From: Paragonimus westermani | Lineage: Eukaryota; Platyhelminthes; Trematoda; Plagiorchiida; Troglotrematidae | Direction of reading: 5' to 3' | Assembly (NCBI GenBank): GCA_008508345.1 | Contig: QNGE01000289.1 | Coordinates: 261,611 to 325,610, forward strand | Length of the DNA: 64,000 nt | In this document: in pieces, positions 928 to 53,895 of the stretch | How positions within the stretch are numbered: the first letter of the stretch is position 1 | How the letters are laid out: every line of letters starts with the position of its first letter | The notes under the pieces: generated by a model | Database searches by the model: none | What the model saw: only the letters and a program-made list of their open reading frames with translations | What the model was told of the DNA's origin: nothing | Position numbers and translations under genes: made by a program

Positions 928-3589
928 CTGCGTAGAAACACGCTGTTATGCCTATTACCAGTTCGACAAATGAATGAAATGTACGTAAATATATATCATG
1001 AGCTAGTCGCCAAATATAGCCAAATACACGTTGAACCAATGCCCAGTGGTTTAGACCACTTCGCGGTTAGGTGGCCCAGTACGGTCAATTCCATAGCCGT
1101 TACCTTCTGATTAGCTCATCGGGTTAGAACGATACCCACGCCCACCTTTATGCCTCATCCCGGTTGGTTCAACTGGAAAAACGTGCACGCCAGCGTTTGG
1201 TTGATGAACGACTTCGTCAGCCGTTACCGATGATCTGATTAGGTTGTTTTGATGATGTTGTTTCCTGACACTCGGATTATGTGACATACCTCGACTCCAT
1301 ATACAACCAGCAGTGGTTGTACGCAGTATTGATGAAGTAAGTCAAACGAGTTTAGAAGTCGACTGCTGACAGACGTCAGAGGGCAGTGTGCGCAAGATGG
1401 AAGAGAAAAGGTAACCGTGATTCATGTCAGAGAACAATCTAATTAATAAACCTTGGAGGTGCAAACCACGATAGTCATGAGTCACAAAATCTTGGTCCAA
1501 ACTGACAACAACACGCCTCATTCACTTTAATAACGTCAGCGACGAATGCATATCGGTCTTCAGAAGTGTAATGTACATAAAATTTACCAACTGGGATCAA
1601 AACTACATAGCGCTAACAATTGCCATGGACTACCTTCAAAAAATCGAAGGAACTTAACCAGACTTCGAAGACTCTCCTATACACATCACATCGACGTAAA
1701 CATGGAAAGACAGTGATAGATAAACCATCATGCAACGGAATGCAGAAGCCGTATTCTATGTCAGAATGCAATCCTGAACGGATAGCCTAAAGAACTGAAA
1801 TCGCCGACGATGAAAACGATGTTTTGTTTCAATTTTCTAGACGAGTTAACACGTTGGGAGGCACCGATCTTCGAACGAGATACGATACTGGTACCAGAAG
1901 TAATATACCAATCTATGCTGAAGAATGCATATCGTATGTGAATAACTGTATCAATATAGCCCGAAGACTGGTGTTTTTTGGGAATGTAGACCCATATCAG
2001 TGGATTTGCAAAAATTCGAGGAACGAAACGACATTATAATATTGTAAGCCGACTCACTACTCCAGCACGTGCGAATTCAGGTAAATGAACAAAGTCGGGT
2101 AGATTTACCAAGATGATTAATAGTGTATCACGACTTTTGAACACAGAAGGCAATGTTAAAAACATGGTCATTCTATCATAAGCCCATTGTTGCTATGTGT
2201 TAAATACAGAAAGACAAGACAGCGCAATGAAAGTCATCTGGATTAAATCTCGATTTCAGAAGTGAAAGGGTTTATGGTTTACAATTCATACGTGGTACCG
2301 ATTATTGTCTTTGGCCTATATCAGTGGACAACAGATAAAGCTGTTTTAGGATGCCGTGACAGACAACTAAATAGTCAGACCAATGGCTAGCAAATTGTTC
2401 GCTTACTACGCGAGCGCACGCCAACATGAGTCAATAGGACACTGTGGTGGTGTACGAATTCAAATTGGTTCGGACCGGAATTCCGAAACCACGAGGATTT
2501 ACCCTAACTGATCTCGTAACCGAGTCAGGTTAGTGATCGGTGCCCACGGAGCACTATAACAAGGTTGCACTCGCCAAATTACGAATGGAAGCTTTGTTTA
2601 GGTTGCCACAGTTATATCTGTAGTTCGGTAATAGCGGAAGGCTAATCGAGAGCGAACAGCTCGGCAACCGATGGGCGCTGCAGCGCTGGGACCCAGTGTA
2701 GTGAGGATAGACGGTCGCACTATACTACTGACACCACCACTATTCAATAGCGAGGCGACAGCGTGGGTCGAAATGGCCGCGGGACAAATACGGGAGAGAT
2801 ACGGGAAGGATCATTGGAGGGCAGCATCACATGGAATGGCTTTTGCTGCATGAGATAACTGAGACTTGGTGTCCAAAGCGACAGGAACATCCTCAGATCA
2901 GTGTTTTGTGCAAATGAGTGTTTTTGCTCGTAGTCATGTTGGGACGCATAACTCGTGTATTGGTTTCCTCAAATAAACAACCTCTCAGCCATCCGCCTCC
3001 TCGGTTCACAATACCAGTATTCATTGGGGAATCGGGAAGAGACAGAGTAAGAAACACTGTATCTCCTCAGCGCACCGACGTAAGCTTTCTCTAATTAACG
3101 CAGGATGGATTTGCACACCTATTAGTAGAGTACGTTTCGACCCGGAATAAGACTGGTTAAAACACAGTGCAAAAGTGCTCAGTCAATGTGGTATTCTTCC
3201 ATCTCATTCGTTAAACCATTATGGGTACCTTTCCCATAATAAAACTGAATGGTCATTACGTAAAGCAATGGGATATTCCGACACGCCTGAGAGATAATGT
3301 CCTGGAACTTATGTTACATTCCTGATGTTACACTATGTATAGATTATAGTCCCATTACGATCCCTATATGAAGCCCGACAAACACTCTGATGTTCTGGAG
3401 TTAAAGGAATGGTACACTTTAAGTTGCGTACTATCATTCTGGGATTAAAATCACGGGATACTTCACGTTACACACGAGCCAAACAGACTTGATTTCTGAT
3501 GGGTAGCACGGCATTTTGGTTTTCCTACACATTAAACATCACCAGCAATTAATTGCACCTGTCGCATTCTCAAAAATTTGGAGGTCGAT
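928..3589. other. Non-coding or unassigned sequence
   Basis: About 2.7 kb with only short, unrecognised open frames on both strands, for example 1824-2039 and 2671-2853 on plus. None shows a known motif or convincing splice borders. Further exons of the minus-strand transporter may be hidden here, but none could be supported. Confidence 0.4.
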
Positions 3590-3598
3590 CGAAAAGAA

Positions 3599-3643
3599 GT
3601 ACTAGTCTCGAGTCTCGCTCTCACTAGAGCTCGTCGGTAGTGC
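3599..3643 (-). ncRNA. Degenerate hammerhead ribozyme in SINE copy 1
   Basis: On the minus strand the core reads CCGACGA (3637-3631), against the consensus CUGAUGA with one U4-to-C change; position 7 may vary. Stem II is a perfect 5-bp hairpin, GCTCT-AGTG-AGAGC (3630-3617). The GAAA box is GAGA (3616-3613). Stem III contains the palindrome CTCGAG (3612-3607). Cleavage would fall after C3605. Stem I pairs 3638-3641 with 3604-3601 (four Watson-Crick pairs) plus 3643 with 3599 after one mismatch. U16.1 is A and A14 is G, so this copy is probably inactive, but the fold is clear. Confidence 0.7.
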
Positions 3644-3662
3644 ATACCCTTGCCACGGCCGG

Positions 3663-3715
3663 GACTAGAACTTCGGTCGTGATTTCATAAGGCAACTGTA
3701 CTGGCCACTGCGCTA
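3663..3715 (-). promoter_or_regulatory. RNA polymerase III internal promoter (A and B boxes)
   Basis: The A box TAGCGCAGTGG (3715-3705) fits the consensus TRGCNNARYGG exactly. The B box GTTCTAGTC (3671-3663) departs from GTTCRANNC at one position. The spacing of about 33 nt between the boxes is normal for tRNA genes. No full cloverleaf was found, so this is a SINE head and not a functional tRNA gene. Confidence 0.65.
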
Positions 3716-4164
3716 TTCGCCTCACACTAGGCGCGATTGAACCATCATGTGTGAACACAGTCACACCCGCTTGTTTTCGTCAGTTAATATATCCATGTAA
3801 AGTATGTTCCCAGAGGAGTTGACTCGTTAATCTATTGGACGGAAATCGAGAAATGTAAGCAACCATTTAACCGAAATACACTTTTTTTAAATGTCCAGTG
3901 ATGGGACTTCAGAAAGCAGAAACTCGTTACACCTAAAACTGATACAAATTGGGCCTGATGACACTGGGTTTCTGCGTGTGTGCTTCGAACAAATCAGAGG
4001 TAAACTGGGAGAGAAAAGTCAAAAGTATCGTAATTGCTTTTAATTTCTTCCCAGAGCAAACGGGCGAATGGTTATTAAGTGCATTACTTCAGCCTCTACT
4101 AAACCACACCAGCCATGGTAACAGAAGTGAATCGGGTAATTGATCAACCCAAAAACAGTATACG

Positions 4165-4379: not shown

Positions 4380-4496
4380 CTGTACGCGTGAACTTATAAA
4401 TAATCAAATCGCCCTGAAACTATTGGAAAAGTATTCGACCTTGAGGTCACATCAAAAAGAGAGAAAAGGTAAATTAGACACTATCTGACAGCTTAC

Positions 4497-4760
4497 CCAG
4501 TGAGCTATTGGCTGCGGCTGCGGCCAAAACGATGACGGTGTCGAATGCGCCCAGTAACAATAAACGTCTACGTTCCTCACGACCTTGTCTGAAGCCTGCG
4601 ATCTCAGGAGATTGATCTGAATTCTCCACGATTCTGGTAAGATCGGTGAAGCATACATTAACTTGCACAATGAAAGAGATCATTCCACCACCCACGATCC
4701 CAGAGAGAAAGGAGCCAAGAATTAAAAAAGTCACCGAGAGTTCCAGCAGAATCATGAGTA
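4497..4760 (-). CDS. SLC46-like MFS transporter, exon 3
   Basis: This minus-strand exon of 264 nt (2 + 87 codons + 1) lies behind a strong acceptor, TCATCTTTTTTTATAG at 4776-4761, and ends at a GTAAGC donor at 4496. It encodes two hydrophobic stretches, LLELSVTFLILGSFLSGIVG and, after a polar loop, LLLLGAFDTVIVLAAAAA. Between them, SFIVQVNVCFTDLTR sits where SLC46 proteins have the short motif after helix 4. The charged run REERRRLLLL resembles the start of helix 5 in that family. It takes the 1-nt overhang of exon 2 (CTA, Leu) in the correct phase. It is part of a plasma-membrane or lysosomal solute carrier; the substrate cannot be told from sequence. Confidence 0.65.
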
Positions 4761-5678
4761 CTATAAAAAAAGATGAAACAACGTAACAATTATGAACTGG
4801 GGAAGAGGGAAAACACATTGCAGTAGCGGTCGGGTAGTTAGGAACAGTACTTTTTCACTAAACTCAGGCTGTATAGTATTTCTCAGGACCTCGATGTGTT
4901 AGCCAAATCAGCGAAATCATGGAACAATGGAAAGAAAGATGTGAACTATCTAATTTTCTGAGCCAATAACTATGGTTTTTGAGAGCGAATAAGCTGGAAA
5001 GCGTAGGGTCATTTGCTTGACTTGGTCTATCCCAAATTGGACACACATCGGGAGTTAAACACCTGAAATCTTCGATTTGCCAGAACCAGGTTTCTCACAG
5101 CTTGCCATCTGAAAGATCAGTTTACACCACTTTTATTGAGTGTAGTAAGCCTTCCGGAAATATACTTGTACAAATCCATTTTCTCCAACTTATGGTTGGC
5201 TAGCTCGTCCAACTTTATGAATAAGCCGGAATTACATTGTGCAAGTTACACTGATAAAGATTTTAGGTTACATTAAATTAAGATCAATATATTTTCAACG
5301 TACATCATCCGGTAGGTTCTTCCTTTACCCAATTGTGTACGCAAGAAACTAAGCTAGTAACGGATTTAATCAAACCGTCTAGAGAGAAAATAAGTAAGTC
5401 GCATTGTGTCTGTATCATCATCAGAAACTTTATCAACTGGACGGCAACCTCTTCGACCACCAATCTAAGGGAGAGGATACGAAAGACTGTAAAAAGTCGA
5501 CGAGAACTCTGTAGAAACCAAGTGTCTCTCTTTTCCGTCCTCAAGGTTATCTGGGAATAAAATGTCAACCATCCCTAGTGTTCTGAACAGTCTCACCAGT
5601 CAGCTGGGCAGAAGCCGTTCCAATACAGATTGAATGATGAAAGGTCCACTACCAAATCTGTATGCTAAACGGCGCCGT

Positions 5679-6508: not shown

Positions 6509-7595
6509 ACATGTGGGTAGAGATATTACCACAATACCGATGTTTGGACAAAATCCAACTAGCTCCGATTTGAATCTATTGATGGGCAATCGGAGGTTTT
6601 GGTAATTTCCAGTGGATCGTTGCCAACGTTGATCACAACCTCAACATTCCAATAAGCACTTTGGTCAGACCTTGTCGAATAGAAGTACGGAACCAGATAT
6701 GAATTTCCACCTTATTCTCATGAAGCAACCGTGCTGACAAAGGCAAAAATGAATCACACTCGGTGCGACCGGAATACAATACGTTCAGTGGTTCACTGAC
6801 GAACAAGGTTGCCTCAAGAAAACGAGGCCGATTGTTTAGTCCCAGTCCTGACAAGGATATGCACCAGTGATGAGCTCTAATGAGAAAGTAACACTAGTGT
6901 GGTGCTCCTTCTTGAAACAGGTCAACCGGAAAGTCTGTCCTACTGTGGAAGCTGCGACCAAAGTTGACTGATTTTCAACTTGAAATTAACTTATATTTTA
7001 CTTAGACCAAGGACTTAGTCAGGAAATAGGCGTATTTCAAAAGGCGGTAACCAATTACTTCTTTTTTCAAGGACTTTAAAAAGTGGCAAAGCGTGGTTTG
7101 TTTTTTTACCATTAACAAGCAACTGCATTACCCACAATATTAATTCCAGGTGTCAAGGGTTTTGAACCAAATCTCTAGCATAACCCGCGCACTCAGACTT
7201 GCATACTAGAACAGTCTCGGTTACCATTCGGTTGGTGTCAGATTGACGTGAATCCGATAGCAAAACCAGTATAGATTAAAACAGTAAACTACATTATTTA
7301 GCCGGGTTTAAATAAGAGCTAAGCTAACAGGAACGAGGAGTGAAGATTATCTAGGAATTGATTCATGTACTATGAAGATCCGTTCAGAGGCCACTGAGTA
7401 GGCAGGCTGAGTGCAGTCTGGAGTGACTGCTATACTGTTTCTACCTGGGAGTCTGAGCTACGGCTCTCGAAGGTGTGTTTTTAACGGCGGTAGCCAATGC
7501 AAAGTATTCCGCCTGTCGTACAAGTATTTCTAGGACGGAAACTGACATGTTTGTGACTAAATAAATGTATGTTATTATTATTAACATTAACTCAC

Positions 7596-7798
7596 GAATA
7601 ACAACGTTATGTAAACCCTGCCCGAGTAAGACGACTCCAATGGCCAGACGTCGTCCGTATTGATCAGACAGTCGACCAACAACAACGGAGGAAAACAACC
7701 CGGATATCAAGGAAGTCAGTCCGACCATCGACAGGAGACGTGCCGTTTCGGCTTGAACATCAGCTCGCTTATCACTTATTGGATCGTCATTCAAACTG
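7596..7798 (-). CDS. SLC46-like MFS transporter, exon 2 with motif A
   Basis: This minus-strand exon of 203 nt (1 + 67 codons + 1) runs from an acceptor (CCCGTTTTAATTGGTTCACAG ending at 7799) to a perfect GTGAGT donor (7595-7590). It begins with an acidic, polar stretch (LNDDPISDKRADVQAETARL) like the loop before helix 2 in SLC46 proteins. Then comes the helix SMVGLTSLISGLFSSVVVG and the hallmark MFS loop 2-3 motif A, GRLSDQYGRR, with the Asp and Arg residues that gate MFS carriers. Helix 3 starts at LAIGVVLLGQ. The Leu-Phe-Ser-Ser before motif A also matches SLC46A1. It joins exon 1 and exon 3 in phase. MFS membership is near certain; SLC46 is the best subfamily fit by eye. Confidence 0.75.
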
Positions 7799-9054
7799 CT
7801 GTGAACCAATTAAAACGGGAGGTATGTGATCCAAAGCACTTCGTTCATTGGGAAAGCAGTGTTCAGCAACTGTTCAAATCAGTATGAGACCTGAGGATGA
7901 ACAACAGTGTAGAAAGCTACACACGTTTTGCACACAATCAACGAACTGTAACTGAGTTTGGGAACAATAGCTACTGACATAGAAGAGCTCCCATGATTCG
8001 TCGAGTTTTCTTCTAATCGCATAATCACATAGCGATCAAAGGCAAAACATGAGTTATTTGAAGGTCCAAAAGATGGGTGAGAAATCAGCCGGAAACCGTA
8101 TGCTCATGAGCTTGCCTATAGCTGTGAACCCTCTGTGAGGATCATAGACGTATATGGGGCTAGCATCTTCAGTACACCTGCTTCTTTCCCAAATAAACAC
8201 AAAACACACATCACCAAAAACACAGATGATAACGCACCAAAGTTGGCAATGTGCTAAGAATTTTCAAATGAATAATAGTCAATAATACCACCGTGTAAAG
8301 GAACTACAGCACTGACGGTTTATACACAGTACAGCAAACCAGAGCATTACCAATAACCACTAGCTAACGTTTGTCATATTCTGTTGTTCATACAACTGTC
8401 ATAAGAGCTCAGTTCAAACGACAAACTAGATGTTCGGATAAAATGACTGGTAACAAACAAAAGTGCCAAGTGATTGCATGGTAGCGAAGTACAATATCAA
8501 AAAAGGACATGAAGTTAGAGTGCTGGACGCATTCGCTGCGAACTAACCGAGAAGCTAAAAAAAGTTACGAAATTAATAGGACATTCCGCTCCAGTCATCA
8601 TGTGTGAGTGCTCATTCTTCCTGTATTACCATTCGTCAAGAACGCTGTTTTGGATGCAGCATACAACTGGCACGATAGCATACCGCGTGCACAAACTAAG
8701 GTTACCTAAGAGAGATAATTGTCCGGACAACCGTTCACAGCAGCGGCTGGTGTGTGATAAAAACAGACAGCTATTGAGTTAGTTAGGTTGTCGATTCAGA
8801 TAACCAGCCAGGTAGGAACAGTGGGTAGCCAACCTAAGGTAAAAGTGTTCGGAGAATGAATCCACAATCTGTTTGCACCACACTCCAGTTACATCAAAGT
8901 AGCTGTGTTATGTGCCCCACTTTGACGGCGTGCGATTTTATAGTTACACGCTTTATGCAGTAGCAACACTTGAGCGCGACTTCCAAGACACGATGTCTAA
9001 TACACACAAGCGAATGTGGATGAACGTTTATATCCGACAACTGAGCTGGGCGCA

Positions 9055-9192
9055 ATACGAGATCATTTGCACAGTAGTCAATATGCGTGATTCATGAAAG
9101 CGAGACCAGAGTTCCGGTGTCTGTACTGACAAGCCTATGCAATTCTGATGAACCCTAACAGGGACCAAACTCGAGTCTAGTAGTTCTTTGCG
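9055..9192 (+). repeat. SINE with tRNA-like head and hammerhead ribozyme, copy 2
   Basis: This is the same SINE family as 3590-3722, here on the plus strand. The A-box equivalent TTGCACAGTAG is at 9067-9077 and the B-box equivalent GTTCCGGTG at 9111-9119, both more decayed than in copy 1. Co-linear blocks shared with copy 1 include CAGT-G-CA, ATGAAA, AGTTC, CAAG--TATGCA and CTCGAG-CTAGTA-TTCTTT. The element ends near 9192, after which the two copies diverge. It lies in intron 1 of the transporter, antisense to it. Confidence 0.7.
9139..9183 (+). ncRNA. Hammerhead ribozyme in SINE copy 2
   Basis: The first core strand CTGATGA (9145-9151) is perfect. Stem II is the 14-nt segment 9152-9165, with a CCC/GGG helix. 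The second core strand is CAAA (9166-9169), a single G12-to-C change from GAAA. A15.1 (9169) pairs with U16.1 (9176), and C17 is 9177, giving the usual GUC cleavage triplet. Stem III is only the palindrome CTCGAG (9170-9175). Stem I pairing is weak here (AATT against TAGT) but strong in copy 1. A change at G12 normally abolishes catalysis, so this copy is probably inactive. Confidence 0.6.
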
Positions 9193-10357
9193 AAACAGCC
9201 GCCTAAGACACCAGTAGAAAAGCAAAAGCTTCAATCAGGTGTGAATGATGTTTAGCTTAAAGCAAACTTTTCATGGGAACAAAATAATTGATAACATATA
9301 CTGCATTCACAGGTGGAACAGCGGCGACACTATGAATTCTTTAAAAAAATCAAGGATAAGAGCACCACTTGGTCAGGAATCCCTTGACTCGTTGTGAACA
9401 AAAAAGTAGCTGAAACACAAGACTCAACTTGGGCAATAACCAGCATGTCGGAGATAGTTTACAGAGTTTCAGCAAGTATAATCAAAAGATAACACGGTAT
9501 TCTCGTTAGGATCGATGAGAATTAGATCGAAGCGAGCTCCTTGAGAAACTATAACTCTGGGCCAAATAGAGACACAAATATGGAGGGATCAGCATAAAAA
9601 TAACCTTGACTATCCACCAGTCAACGGATGACATCACATACAACGAAACTGAAAAACGCGATATGATTTATGCGCAGCATACTAAGGTTTGTTATACCAA
9701 CTTACAGTAGATAGTGACGGGGTCCAAAAAAAAAGGAATTAGGAGGAGATAGAATGTGTTAGACCTGAGCCAGAGACAATGCATAGTTGAACGTAATATG
9801 TGCATTCTTTCGGTATTCAAGAAATATATTGGAATTTGACGATCAATAAGGTAAATTTGATTGATCCTGCATCTAGTTCATGCATCTACCAAATGAGAAC
9901 ACTAATAAAATGAGGTGCAGAATTTATTTTAAAAACCTCATTGAAATAACAGGATATGTAACAGGCGCTTTAGGTTCCCATTAAACTTACAGATTCTCAT
10001 GAAAGTGGACTGCCCGATTAACTTCATAGGGTAGACCGGCATCTTTCAACAACCTGTTGATAGAGAAAGACAGAGAGACTAGCAATGAATGCAACTGGGA
10101 TTGGTCTTTAGCAATAAAAGTTCACGAAATTGCTATCCGAGGGCTGTTACTTTGAAAACGCACTGTCCTGTAAATCAGTTAACACGATCGGCGTCGTTTT
10201 GGTAGTCAATAGTAAGGTGAAGCATAGTCATTGATGCTAAACGCAGTGGGATCAATACCACTGCCGGAGTACCTCACCATTTGAGACGAAATCAACGGAA
10301 TTAAGAAGGAATACCTGCGTTATGAAGCTATCTTAAACATCATATGAACTACTGTTG

Positions 10358-11099: not shown

Positions 11100-12003
11100 A
11101 ATATATTGATCCATCAGAAGTCGAGGGGTTCTGCCGTGCATCAATCGAAATGGCGATTTCTTCGGGCTCGCCTGCACAGACTCACAGTGGGCAAATAACA
11201 CTAGTGGTAACGCAAGCTTCCAGTTGCCTCCTTTGAACGATAACCATTCCTTGATCGTTCGGCTGTTATGTTCAGTGGGCCTATTCGTCTACGGATGCGC
11301 TTGATTCTTAACTGTTTCATGCGTGTTCGAAACTCCTCGCTCTCAAAGCATGGTCCCTGATCCACAAGATCGTTTTTGGCACACGGTGGTTCCTATGACG
11401 AACATCATTGCTATATCTCCCACCGTAGATGTCTTTTGGGACGCTAGTCGCTTCAATTCAACGGGTAAAATGTTCTGTCACGACCAGAATGTACTGGTTG
11501 TAGTGGGTGCTTAATGGAAACGGGCCCATAAGATCCGGTGACCACAGTTCACTGATTTTGGAGACCGGTATCGGTAGTAAGGGATGCTGAGCTCCCCGGT
11601 TGTCGCTTTTCAGTAGCTGACACTGTTGGCAGGCAAGCACGTAAACCGTTATATCTTCTTTCATCTTCAGCCAATATGCTCTTTGTTGTAACAGATCATA
11701 TATCCTGGTGCACTCAGTGTGTGCCAATTCATGGCAGTTTGTTACCAGTTTCCTCCGCAGTTGTCTCGGGATGACTACCACATGAGAATGACCAACGCCA
11801 CGTTGATACGTCGCACTGTTCAGGCCAAATCTTCTCCAATGGGAAGCGATTATTTTTCGCTCTTGAACCTTAGTAGCTGCTGGGACCTCTACGTCTCTTG
11901 TCAAAGTGTCAGTCACCTTTCGGAGGACCTTGTCCTGACACTCTAGACGTACTAGTGCTTTTGGGTCCTGCTCCATTACCAAGCCATTTACGTTGAAGGT
12001 CAC
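11100..12003 (-). pseudogene. Gypsy integrase (broken)
   Basis: The open part is 11458-12003. It carries the N-terminal HHCC zinc-binding domain: histidines in CHELAHTEC, then W..M and the CQQCQLLK cysteine pair. A linker leads to the start of the catalytic core, ELWSPDLMGPFPLS, whose Asp is the first of the DDE triad. After a stop near 11457 the frame still reads core-like sequence (IEATSVPKDIYGG) with further stops down to about 11100, so the rest of the catalytic core is eroded. Integrase would insert element cDNA into the genome. It is the last gene of the element, as expected for Gypsy. Confidence 0.8.
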
Positions 12004-12024
12004 TTTGGGAAGTTCGTCGTCCGC

Positions 12025-12672
12025 CTACAGTCGAGAAAGAAAATCAGCGACGCAATAATGAGAACCGGGCATATGATTGATCGCGAACTCATTCCTGTAA
12101 ACAGCGCCCATCGGACTAATTTGCCTCTCGGGCCCCTCGCCGTCCTGATCCACTAGAGGCTTGTGATCCGTCACCACGTAGAACTGTTGACCCAACAAGT
12201 ACGGCCTCCACTTGTCCAGTGCCCAGACGATTGCCAAACATTCCTTCTCAATGTTTGAATACTTTTGTTCAGTTGGGGCCAACAGTCTGCTGGTATATTC
12301 GATTACTCTTTCCTATTGCTTGAGTACTGCCCCAACTCCACGGTCACTGGGATCGGCTGCTACGATGAACTGTCCTTTCGTATTCGAAAGTTTCAGCGTC
12401 AGTTGCTGCTCGATCAGCTCTAACTTCGCTCGCATGGACGCCTTCTGGGTCTCATCGGTCCATTCAAATTGCTTGTCTGTTCGAAGGAGTTCGTACAATG
12501 GAGGTAAAATGGAGTGGAAACTTTTCACGAACGGACTGTAGTACTCTGCTCGACCCAAGACTTTTCTCAGAGTGCGCTTAGAATTCGGTGCCACGGCCTC
12601 TCTAATTGACAGTATTTTCTCTGGCAAGGGACTGATTTCACCTTGGCCTACCTTGTTTCCCAGTAACCTCAT
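12025..12672 (-). pseudogene. Gypsy RT connection and RNase H domains (broken)
   Basis: Two adjacent minus-strand frames, 12313-12672 and 12025-12282, are separated by one stop. The first opens with LLGNKVGQGEISPLPEKI, matching the post-RT region (FLGH.V...GI.P...K), and continues into the RNase H start FIVAADPSDRGVGAVLKQ, with Asp residues where the catalytic DAS is usually found. The second reads QKYSNIEKECLAIVWALDKW, which carries the conserved Glu, and VVTDHKPL, which carries the conserved Asp. It ends with HMPGSHYCVADFLSRL, a standard Gypsy RNase H terminus. RNase H removes the RNA template during reverse transcription. Confidence 0.85.
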
Positions 12673-12729
12673 CGATGACCGTCCGAGTTGTGACCTATCG
12701 GAATTAATCTAGAGTCCTGAGTTATTTAT

Positions 12730-13266
12730 TCAACTTAAGATCGTACCTAGGTGGACAGCATGTTCCGAATCTGTGTTACTGTATATCACAATATCATCTC
12801 CATATACCGCTACATTATCCAGCCGTTTTAACAAGTGAACCATCAGGCGTCGAAATGTGAATGATGCTCCCGATAAGCCAAGCGGCATCCACTTGATTGC
12901 TACTGTCTGTCGCCCACCATGATCCGTGGGTTTGATTGCTAGCTGCCAGTATTCAGAACGTAGGTCCAACACAGTGAACAACTTGGCTTGTTGCATCTTA
13001 TCAAAAATATCAGCGACGGACGGTATTAGTACAACTGTGTTTCGTGTTACCTCATTTAACCGTTTAAAATCCACACAAAAGCGGTACTTCCCGTTGGACT
13101 TCACCAGGAGGGCATGGGAGTTATACGGACTGATGGCTTCTTCGACAACATCCTCATCCAGTATGTTCTTTATATGCCTTTTTACTTCCTCTTCGAGATG
13201 AACCAGTACCCTGCGGGATCCGTGAGGTCGAATTGTCCCGATTAAGGGTATTTCACATGCAACCAA
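12730..13266 (-). pseudogene. Gypsy reverse transcriptase
   Basis: An open stretch of 178 codons contains the Gypsy RT signature blocks in order: EEVKRHIKNILDEDVVEEA, SPYNSHALLVKSNGKYRFC, VDFKRLNEVT, FTVLDLRSEYWQLAI (motif A, Asp present), LPLGLSGASFTFRRLM-like sequence (the usual GAP is GAS), and VAVYGDDIVIYS (motif C, with both Asp residues of the YxDD box). The catalytic aspartates are therefore intact, but the frame is cut off from the protease upstream and the connection domain downstream. It copies element RNA into DNA. Confidence 0.88.
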
Positions 13267-13507
13267 GTTGCAGAAGTCGTACGAATAATCGTCGTTCGTA
13301 AATACCTCCGCGTATTTCTCTACCGCGGACTAGAATAAAGGAGCTGTGCAAATGGGGTTTTCACCGTGCGAATTTGGTGGAAGCTACCCTGTTCCTGTTC
13401 TGTGAGTGTCAGGGTACCAGACGTGGTTGACAGCATTTTGAGCCTCAGATCGACCACGGTAGCAGTTGCAACAAGGATAGTGGTTCCAAGGATCGTTTGC
13501 ATGTTTT

Positions 13508-33414: not shown

Positions 33415-34527
33415 TCACTTCACAGACAACTCGGCCAAACAACGACAACATTCACGCCACTGAACTCTATTAGCCGCCATCTCACCTATAGTCTCCAACC
33501 ACCGACTCTGTGAGTCGCGAGGACCCCAGCCCGGGAGACGAACACGACCCACGGTGGCCAACCCCTTCGTGAACGACTTCATTTCCCTACGCCAGGTCAT
33601 TGTCGGTCCACCTCGCACCTTACACCAGTCGATCGCAGTGTCAGCGAATAGTGCTCGGTGTGGAAGACGACTAACTGGCATTCTTAATACATGACCTAAC
33701 CATCTAAGCCTGTGTAAACGTAGAGATTGGACAAGAGAACTCGTCTGACAATCACTACCAAACACCCGCTTCCTAACCTCCTCGTTACTTACGCGCTGAT
33801 GCCACCCGATACGAGCGATTGAACGCAGACATCGGTGGTCAAATACTTGAAGACGGTTCACGTCTTCTACCCTGAGCGGCCAGGTTTCGCTGCCGTAAAG
33901 TAATACGGCCCTCACCGTTGTCTTATATACACGACCTTTAAGCTTCAGAGAAATACACCTCTGTCGCCAGAGATGCCTCAAGTTAGCGAATACCGCCCTA
34001 GCCTTAGAGATACGCGCTTCTATTTCATTCCCTACACCTCCACCGCTGCTGATGCAGCTTCCCAGGTATACAAACCGGTCAACAACCTCCATGACTACAT
34101 TATCCAACATCAAATCGACGTGGTCACAGCAATCCTGCAGAAGCACTTTGCATTTTGAGGCTGCAAAGCGCATTCCGAAGTATTTTGCAGAACGCGAAAT
34201 AGCGTCTAACATTACTTGTGCCGATTGAAAGTTGTCAAACAGCAACACCTTGTCGTCAGCATAATCAAGATCCGTCAGTCTTTCACCAGGTAGGAGGTCC
34301 ACGCCGGCATCTTGTGAGTGCCGCAAACAATCCTCCATTATTTCGTCTATGACGAAATTAAACAAAAATGGTGACAGCGGACAGCCTTGACGTACGCCAC
34401 TCATGGTGCTGAAACTGTCAGACAGCTCACCGTAAACCCTAACCTGAGCTGAAGTATGGGAATAGAGTGCCGACAGTATGTTCACGTACTTAGTCGAGAA
34501 ATACAATGGTTGGCCGGCGGTATACAT
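33415..34527 (-). pseudogene. RTE reverse transcriptase, palm to C-terminus
   Basis: This is the longest open frame in the window (370 codons). It includes SGVRQGCPLSPFLFNFVIDE (RT motif B region), LTDLDYADDKVLLFDN (motif C, YADD intact), a block with GMRFAASKCKVL, and the thumb-like FVYLGSCISSGGGVGNEIEA with RISKARAVFANL. The downstream module VRAVLLYGSETWPLRVEDVN, FDHRCLRSIARI and SRLPHRALFAD is typical of RTE elements. No start Met is expected: the frame simply enters the body after a deletion near 34515 that removes motif A (see findings). It cannot encode an active enzyme. Confidence 0.85.
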
Positions 34528-35068
34528 GAGGTTGCTCCAAAATTTGACGAAGAGTGGAAATGTTATCTACACATCCCCGCCCTGGACGAAATCCTGCCTC
34601 TTCCTCCCAAATGTTCTCATCTCGAGCTGCAGTGAGTCGACGAAGTATAATTGATGCTAGAACCCTAGAAACGACTGGGGTCAAACTAATTTCTCCGTGG
34701 TTTTCGCAAGAGCCCCTTATACCTTTCTTGAATATAGGAACTATTATCGAGTGACCCCAACTCGGGGGGATAGTTTCCGTCGTCCACACGAGTTGAAACA
34801 AATGAGTCAAAGCCTCCACTAACGCCTCTCCCCCTTCTTTGAAAAGTGCCGGCACGAGGTCATCTGGACCAGCAGGCTTGTTACGCTTGAGGGCCGCAAT
34901 TGTATCGCGGCCCTCAGTCTCGGTGGATGGTTCCAGGTCTATCGACCAGAGCACTACATTAAAAGTTTGTGGCGGCAACGCAGTAGAAGCAGAAGGCCAG
35001 TTAAATTGACCCCCGAAGTGTTCCATTTTTACAGATGGTTCATTCCGCAATTCACTATGCCCCCACAA
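34490..35068 (-). pseudogene. RTE reverse transcriptase, N-terminal part
   Basis: The minus-strand frame begins with the inter-domain linker KMEHFGGQFNWPSAS, then carries RT fingers: LKRNKPAGPDDLVPALFKEG (the conserved K-x-G-P-D), SWGHSIIVPIFKKG (conserved P-I-x-K-K-G), ISLTPVVSRVLASIILRRL and AGFRPGRGCVDNISTLRQIL (GFR-x-G-R). It ends at PTIVFLD followed by a stop, exactly where motif A (FLDF-x-A-A-F-D) should continue. The N of the usual N-Y/H-R motif before ISL is kept (ENHGEISL), with the R replaced. Confidence 0.85.
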
Positions 35069-35080
35069 ACTCTAAAAGAT

Positions 35081-53109: not shown

Positions 53110-53895
53110 ACCTATTTATATATACGTGTATATGTGTACATATACGTATATGCATATGTTTTTATGTATGTATATATGTATACATATATATATATATATA
53201 TATATGTATACGCATGTTTAATATTATAAACGTTCGCACAGACATATATATACATATAAGTGTGCATATAAGAAGGCATAAACATGTACATATATGTACA
53301 TATATTAATGTGTATTTTTAAATATATTTATATTTATATACATATATATATATGTATGCATATGTATATATCTATATATGTACACCGTATACATGTGTAT
53401 ATAAATGTAATCCGTTTTGGAAATATATATTTATACATGTATATATATATATACATACACACATTAGTGTCCGCAACGATATACATATTTATATACATTT
53501 ATATACATGTAAACATATGTACATATGTGTTTATCTGAACAAGCGTTTTCATATAGCTACACACATATATGTACTTATATGCACATATATACATACACAC
53601 GTATACTTATATACATAAATATGTAATATATATACTTCCATTTACATACATATATGTATACGTTTATCAGGGTTTATACATATATACACATATACTCATA
53701 TGTGCATATATACACGTATATATGTATATATAAGTTTATACAAATATATATATGTATACATATATATACATATACACATTCTGGTCACAATATACCTGTA
53801 TATAAGTCACCACATGCATTCACATTTTCGCAGACATTTCCCCGTATTCTTTAGGTATTTGTTATATATATGGTCTACATATATATTACACAATT
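53110..53895. repeat. TA-rich low-complexity tract (TATATGTATACATA type)
   Basis: About 0.8 kb built almost entirely of interleaved TATATA, GTATAC, ACATATAT and TGTATA units with occasional CATACACA. The Tyr- and Ile-rich open frames here are translations of this simple sequence and not genes. The tract is rich in short inverted repeats and can fold into hairpins. Confidence 0.95.

Follow-up and report, generated by a model that had tools for sequence, protein, structure and literature searches.

The SM-alpha and Sj-alpha elements of Schistosoma are short SINE-like elements of trematodes that carry a hammerhead ribozyme, of type I according to a passage of PMC8490949. Excerpts of PMC2770079 report about 38,500 (S. 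mansoni) and 5,000 (S. japonicum) hammerhead candidates found by blastn, and 2,342 tRNA-Gln-TTG-like copies that are classed as SINE and similar to Sm-alpha. The W-element families of S. mansoni, as excerpted from PMC8490949, have minimal hammerheads with an extremely short stem III, are possibly part of SINE-like elements, are satellite-like and were first found on the W chromosome. The hammerheads of Penelope-like elements are minimal, of type I, and possibly cleave as dimers; in passages of PMC7761336 and PMC6155905 they stand in tandem in pseudo-LTRs and are described as being without helix III or loop-loop contacts. Metazoan non-LTR retrozymes are small non-coding retroelements with a type I hammerhead, a weak helix III and, in amphibians, dimer action (passages of PMC7229834 and PMC7761336), and they are said to have no promoters (PMC7761336, in excerpt). 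A weak stem III with dimer action is noted for newt and amphibian motifs in excerpts of PMC6155905 and PMC7761336, and a legend in PMC3088659 lists several hammerheads, including those of Aedes aegypti, with a palindromic stem III or loop III that would pair in a dimer.

Accounts of SINEs in flukes differ. A passage of PMC6191129 refers to SINEs as lacking in flukes; in contrast, a table in PMC6329441 gives 0.96-1.26% SINE for four fluke genomes, and the lung fluke Paragonimus westermani has a GC content of 43.3% and 0.96% of its genome labelled SINE in the excerpted text of that paper, from which the word hammerhead is absent. Our literature search found no report of a hammerhead-carrying element of this kind in Paragonimus, and an earlier mention is possible (e.g., Lunse 2017, Cervera 2014, Ferbeyre 1998 or Laha 2000). 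When "hammerhead" and "Paragonimus" were searched together, the matches listed included only a paper on the mitogenome of a land flatworm.

We analyzed a 64-kb stretch of P. westermani DNA, referred to as the window, and found three copies of a short SINE-like element with a putative hammerhead (Table 1). Because it is built like the SM-alpha and Sj-alpha elements (excerpts of PMC2770079 and PMC8490949), we regard it as a new element of a known kind. Compared with those elements by description, the lung-fluke element is distinguished by an 8-nt palindromic stem III and by having no recognized tRNA. Unlike the W-element families, it occurs as single dispersed units with a putative A/B-box head; unlike the Penelope-like hammerheads, these single units have a bulged stem I; and unlike the retrozymes, it has A and B boxes in copy 1. 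The Aedes aegypti hammerheads and their like, which resemble it in stem III, are from other animals, and the legend in PMC3088659 mentions no tRNA-like head.

Table 1. Positions of the element copies and their parts in the window
Feature	Position	Strand	Remark
Copy 1, SINE-like element (head, hammerhead, 3' body)	3533..3725	-	both ends approximate
A box of copy 1, TAGCGCAGTGG	3715-3705	-	exact match to TRGCNNAGYGG
B box of copy 1, AGTTCTAGTCC	3672-3662	-	2 mismatches to GGTTCRANNCC
Hammerhead of copy 1	3594..3651	-	predicted fold and alignment
Copy 1, outer stem I	3651-3647/3598-3594	-	
Copy 1, inner stem I	3643-3638/3604-3599	-	
Copy 1, core CCGACGA	3637-3631	-	
Copy 1, stem II	3630-3626/3621-3617	-	perfect, 5 bp
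Copy 1, GAGA	3616-3613	-	
Copy 1, stem III region	3613-3606	-	
Consensus cleavage place projected on copy 1	between 3605 and 3604	-	predicted
Copy 2, SINE-like element	9053..9269	+	initial annotation 9055-9192; ends approximate
Hammerhead of copy 2	9131..9188	+	core CTGATGA, palindrome ACTCGAGT, triplet GTC
Copy 3, SINE-like element	6777..6992	+	core aligned 6783-6920; ends approximate; absent from the initial annotation
Hammerhead of copy 3	6853..6910	+	palindrome ACACTAGTGT over stem III
Possible copy 4, without hammerhead core	6623..6745	-	head-to-head with copy 3; uncertain

The relationship among the copies was examined by blastn within the window. The initial annotation had placed a second copy at 9055-9192, and this was confirmed by the match of copy 1 to 9069-9193 (+), with 65% identity and an E value of 1.8e-10. 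Copy 1 also matched 6808-6915 (+), which belongs to copy 3, with 69% identity (E 1.3e-12), and copies 2 and 3 matched each other with 62% identity (E 5e-7). The three copies lie within 6 kb, with both orientations represented. Their 5' flanks aligned beyond shuffled sequence in none of the three pairs (0.13, 0.58 and 0.62; 400 shuffles each), and homology on the 3' side past the ribozyme was found in two of the three pairs (0.005 for copies 1 and 2, 0/400 for copies 2 and 3, 0.875 for copies 1 and 3). Since the 5' flanks are unrelated and the orientations differ, segmental duplication of one locus was ruled out. The pairwise alignments of two copy pairs span 181 to 220 nt, suggesting that the element is roughly 190-220 nt long and that the ribozyme is internal to it. 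From the three-copy majority, copies 1, 2 and 3 diverge by 17, 22 and 20%, respectively, as counted over 220 columns that exclude 25 three-way ties and the gap columns and include some 3' sequence of unsure homology. A search for target-site duplications yielded only short, unconvincing repeats of 7-8 nt (e.g., two 7-nt matches around copy 3), none of them at both ends of an element.

Searches of the 64-kb window with nhmmer, using two- and three-copy models, returned only the three copies and a doubtful fourth. The latter consisted of two collinear weak HMM matches (E 0.093 and 0.25; E 0.011 and 0.42 in another profile search), and its alignments to the cores of copies 1, 2 and 3 gave 0.03, 0.09 and 0.05 against shuffles. 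Its 3' side aligned in one of three pairs (0/400 with copy 3; 0.20 and 0.25 with the others). With a covariance model built from the three copies, which match it by construction, the next match in the window had an E value of 0.92. Four exact-pattern scans of contig collections (three of viral contigs and one of genome contigs) gave no match, and a reverse-transcriptase probe of the viral contigs gave eight pattern matches, none of which was confirmed. These results say little, because the collections are not expected to contain fluke DNA.

The surroundings of the copies were also examined. The GC content of the window is 40-47% in 4-kb windows. Copy 3 lies between two exon-like ORFs, 4474-4854 (-) and 7441-7809 (-), and copies 1 and 2 flank the pair; neither ORF has a Pfam match, and the second shows a weak likeness to a proton-coupled folate transporter (E 0.095). 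Fragments of an LTR-type retrotransposon occupy 11458-13329 (-): a reverse transcriptase domain and an integrase zinc-binding domain were recognized there, and an RNase H match fell below its cut-off. At 33415-35071 (-), a non-LTR-type reverse transcriptase is divided between two ORFs; a DUF6451 match in this region is below its cut-off. The closest named match of its 383-aa reverse-transcriptase ORF (33415-34566, -), among the best 120 of 881 matches, is from P. westermani (98% over 49% of the query), and other P. westermani matches in that set show 78-93% over 31-59%. These matches and the GC content point to Paragonimus or a close relative as the most likely host. The matches listed also included three fluke-type reverse transcriptases that carry the organism name Streptococcus dysgalactiae; their contigs are 2.1-3.4 kb long and look like fluke DNA in bacterial assemblies. 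An AT-rich repeat region at 53113-53779 gave microRNA matches below the cut-off in Rfam.

The hammerhead was examined in each copy separately. In copy 1, all the parts claimed by the initial annotation (CCGACGA, the perfect 5-bp stem II, GAGA, CTCGAG and a stem I of four pairs plus one) were present. With a simple hammerhead scorer, the length penalties of which were set with copy 1 in view, copy 1 alone ranked 7th among the 1474 sites of the window with a score above 8, indicating that its hammerhead, taken alone, is within chance; copies 2 and 3 passed none of the filters of the scorer. In copy 3, all six inner stem I pairs are formed (GCACCA/TGGTGC), the outer stem I is AAGGA/TCCTT and two of the five stem II pairs are broken. 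In copy 2, four of the six inner stem I pairs and two of the five stem II pairs are broken. Each copy has one to three private core lesions, which are U4C, A14G and U16.1A in copy 1, G12C in copy 2, and C3G, A13U and H17G in copy 3, suggesting that all three copies are inactivated fossils. The initial annotation had proposed to run the Rfam hammerhead models on every copy, and no cut-off was reached: HH9 scored 13.7 bits in copy 1 searched alone (E 0.86) and 11.8 bits in copy 3 (E 1.9) against a cut-off of 52, and no Rfam hammerhead was detected in copy 2 searched alone. Across the whole window, Rfam gave no match at the gathering threshold and no hammerhead up to an E value of 10.

The three copies together gave a different result. 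The majority of the ungapped core alignment reads UAUGCACUA CUGAUGA GCUCU AAUG AGAAC GAA ACUCGAGU C UAGUACUUC, and this consensus, taken blind to structure, restores every core letter (CUGAUGA, GAAA, U16.1 and the triplet GUC). At the required core positions the hammerhead letter is present in two or three of the three copies, with no ties in those columns. The type I core CUGANGA...GAAA...UH is complete in the consensus and in none of the single copies. The initial annotation had named many copies with a consensus restoring CUGAUGA, GAAA and U16.1 as support for its reading, and on the small scale of three copies this is what we found. The stems of the consensus are imperfect, since stems I and II each contain a single C-A mismatch. 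Judged from sequence, the ribozyme is probably a type I hammerhead, its core complete in the consensus and decayed in every copy.

We compared the consensus with several kinds of random sequence. It scored 31.1 with the hammerhead scorer, against 23.7 for the best site in the window. This score was reached by none of 3,000 mononucleotide shuffles (best 27.5), none of 40,000 dinucleotide shuffles (best 29.9; made from a 257-nt majority sequence whose 41 tied columns took the letter of copy 1) and none of 20,000 majorities built from random trios of window sequence (best 28.2). A strict descriptor, which repeats the test without weights, was satisfied by 7 of 1,000,000 shuffles of the consensus and found no site in the window and none in 160 shuffled windows (plus strand). 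The family copies and the complete hammerhead core of their consensus lift copy 1 above chance, and the reading of this locus by the initial annotation as a hammerhead-carrying, tRNA-headed SINE is supported, with reservations about the tRNA-type head.

Pairing in stems I and II was examined across the three sequences. Paired cells made up 74.4% of 39, compared with 23-49% when the partner strand was shifted by one to three columns. In two pairs both letters have changed: copy 3 has C-G in place of U-A in one pair of stem I, and copy 2 has the same replacement in one pair of stem II. The sequences are too few for these changes to prove covariation. Shuffling of the 3' letters, a weak control with three rows, reached the two-sided changes in 55 of 500 trials and the paired cells in 120 of 500. 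An outer stem I helix (AAGGA/UCCUU in copy 3), which was picked by eye, prolongs stem I past a 3-nt bulge, UAU. Of the 15 cells of this helix 86.7% are paired, and three of the five pairs are invariant; when it is included, a slide of -2 also gives two two-sided pairs. The UAUGCA that spans the bulge is identical in all three copies. Fast natural hammerheads are built with a bulged stem I in contact with loop II, and the bulge may matter for this reason. Tertiary contacts of the S. mansoni hammerhead motif are described in a passage of PMC6155905.

The initial annotation had also claimed that stem III is reduced to a palindrome, and this is borne out, as palindromes of 6, 8 and 10 nt are found at stem III across the copies. 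Stem III of the consensus is the 8-nt palindrome ACUCGAGU. Between positions 15.1 and 16.1 the consensus and copy 2 have ACTCGAGT and copy 1 has CTCGAG; the palindrome of copy 3 is different and longer, and overlaps the stem III site. The simulated chance that a palindrome of at least 8 nt survives three random changes is 0.025, which is suggestive only. The palindromic stem III suggests that the ribozyme may act as a dimer. Cofolding of two consensus strands gained 7.3 kcal/mol and paired the 8-nt palindrome along with some of stem II; stem I did not form. In the monomer, the predicted energy of the hammerhead fold was above that of the lowest-energy fold for the consensus (+3.4 versus -5.5 kcal/mol) and for copies 1 (-2.0 versus -9.4), 2 (+8.6 versus -5.7) and 3 (-6.6 versus -12.6). 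These modeled energies count against the hammerhead, at reduced weight because tertiary contacts and the dimer are absent from the energy model.

We investigated the head of the element. The initial annotation had described a consensus A box and a near-consensus B box on the minus strand of 3590-3722, and both are present, with 0 and 2 mismatches. They are spaced 43 nt apart, start to start, which is near the value of about 44 in a tRNA, and the hammerhead-like stretch lies about 20 nt downstream. On both strands of the window, copy 1 is the sole instance of an A/B pair with at most two mismatches in total. By itself this pair is weak evidence, because 10 mononucleotide shuffles of the window yielded 0.3 such pairs per strand. 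The places aligned to the A and B boxes have 2 and 5 mismatches in copy 2 and 3 and 5 in copy 3; the boxes of the HMM consensus have 1 and 2, or 0 and 2 if ties are assigned to copy 1. ARAGORN detected no tRNA in the 64-kb window, and single-copy Rfam searches of copies 1 and 2 gave no tRNA family up to an E value of 10. The claim of a tRNA-type head is favored by the good boxes of copy 1 and weakened by the poor boxes of copies 2 and 3 and by the lack of a recognized tRNA.

Other readings of these results were considered. The copies could form a true repeat family, a SINE or another short element, in which the hammerhead of the consensus is a chance resemblance. Single copies score within background or not at all, none has an Rfam gathering match, one to three core letters are missing in each, as many two-sided pair changes arise in 55 of 500 shuffles, and the consensus has two stem mismatches and a hammerhead fold that is not the one of minimum free energy. 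However, the core of the consensus is complete, only 0 of 40,000 and 7 of 1,000,000 shuffles do as well, and sliding lowers the paired cells from 74% to 23-49%, and we hold a chance resemblance to be quite unlikely. A repeat derived from a C/D box snoRNA, with UGAUGA as the C box, would leave GAAA, UH and the stem I parts unexplained. Copy 3 does have sub-threshold matches to snoR24 (18.3 bits, E 0.31), SNORD82 (17.6 bits, E 0.19) and SNORD113 (14.6 bits, E 1.5), and these three families outscore HH9 there (11.8 bits, E 1.9); the scores are far under the respective cut-offs of 38, 43 and 36, no match was found in copy 1, and copy 2 matched only snR75 (9.4 bits, E 4.1). A snoRNA origin is hardly credible.

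It is also conceivable, but improbable, that the hammerhead is real and that the copies come not from a pol III SINE but are fragments of a Penelope-like pseudo-LTR or of a non-LTR retrozyme. Penelope-like elements are described as having minimal type I hammerheads in which stem III is almost absent, and amphibian retrozymes as having dimer-dependent type I motifs (both in excerpts of PMC7761336 and PMC6155905); the boxes of copies 2 and 3 are poor and no tRNA fold is present. This reading is opposed by copy 1, where an exact A box is followed at a tRNA-like distance by a B box, a combination seen nowhere else in the window, and by the absence of tandem arrangement among the three hammerhead places of the window. 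Moreover, Pfam searches of 18 of the 23 listed window ORFs found no Penelope-type domain.

The most probable explanation, which we hold with good though not full confidence, is that the copies are three independent old insertions of one short interspersed retroelement, the ancestor of which combined a pol III-type head, a type I hammerhead and a palindromic stem III. The ancestral element was probably headed by a tRNA-like RNA polymerase III promoter with A and B boxes. About 20 nt downstream of the promoter it would have carried the type I hammerhead, in which stem I would be bulged, stem II about 5 bp long and stem III made of ACUCGAGU; the ribozyme would have been followed on its 3' side by a further 60-75 nt or so of element sequence. 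From this anatomy we infer that the element may have been transcribed by pol III and that two transcripts, or two units of one transcript, may have joined by base pairing of their palindromes, giving a long stem III common to both. The ribozyme would then have cut after the GUC triplet, and the RNA may have been retroposed by the enzymes of another, partner element. A bolder proposal, which we consider possible but doubtful, is that hammerhead-carrying pol III SINEs are ancestral to digenean flukes and that the lineage of lung flukes retained a form that depends on dimers and whose stem III palindrome changed (ACUCGAGU, ACACUAGUGU) and yet stayed self-complementary. If this were true, it would point to selection for ribozyme action between two transcripts.

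The proposed retroelement adds a lung fluke to the blood flukes as hosts of hammerhead-carrying SINE-like elements. It also provides a short family in which the role of the ribozyme in retroposition, which is still unclear, can be examined. If the palindrome proves to be kept by paired changes genome-wide, it would provide sequence evidence for dimeric action of the ribozyme.
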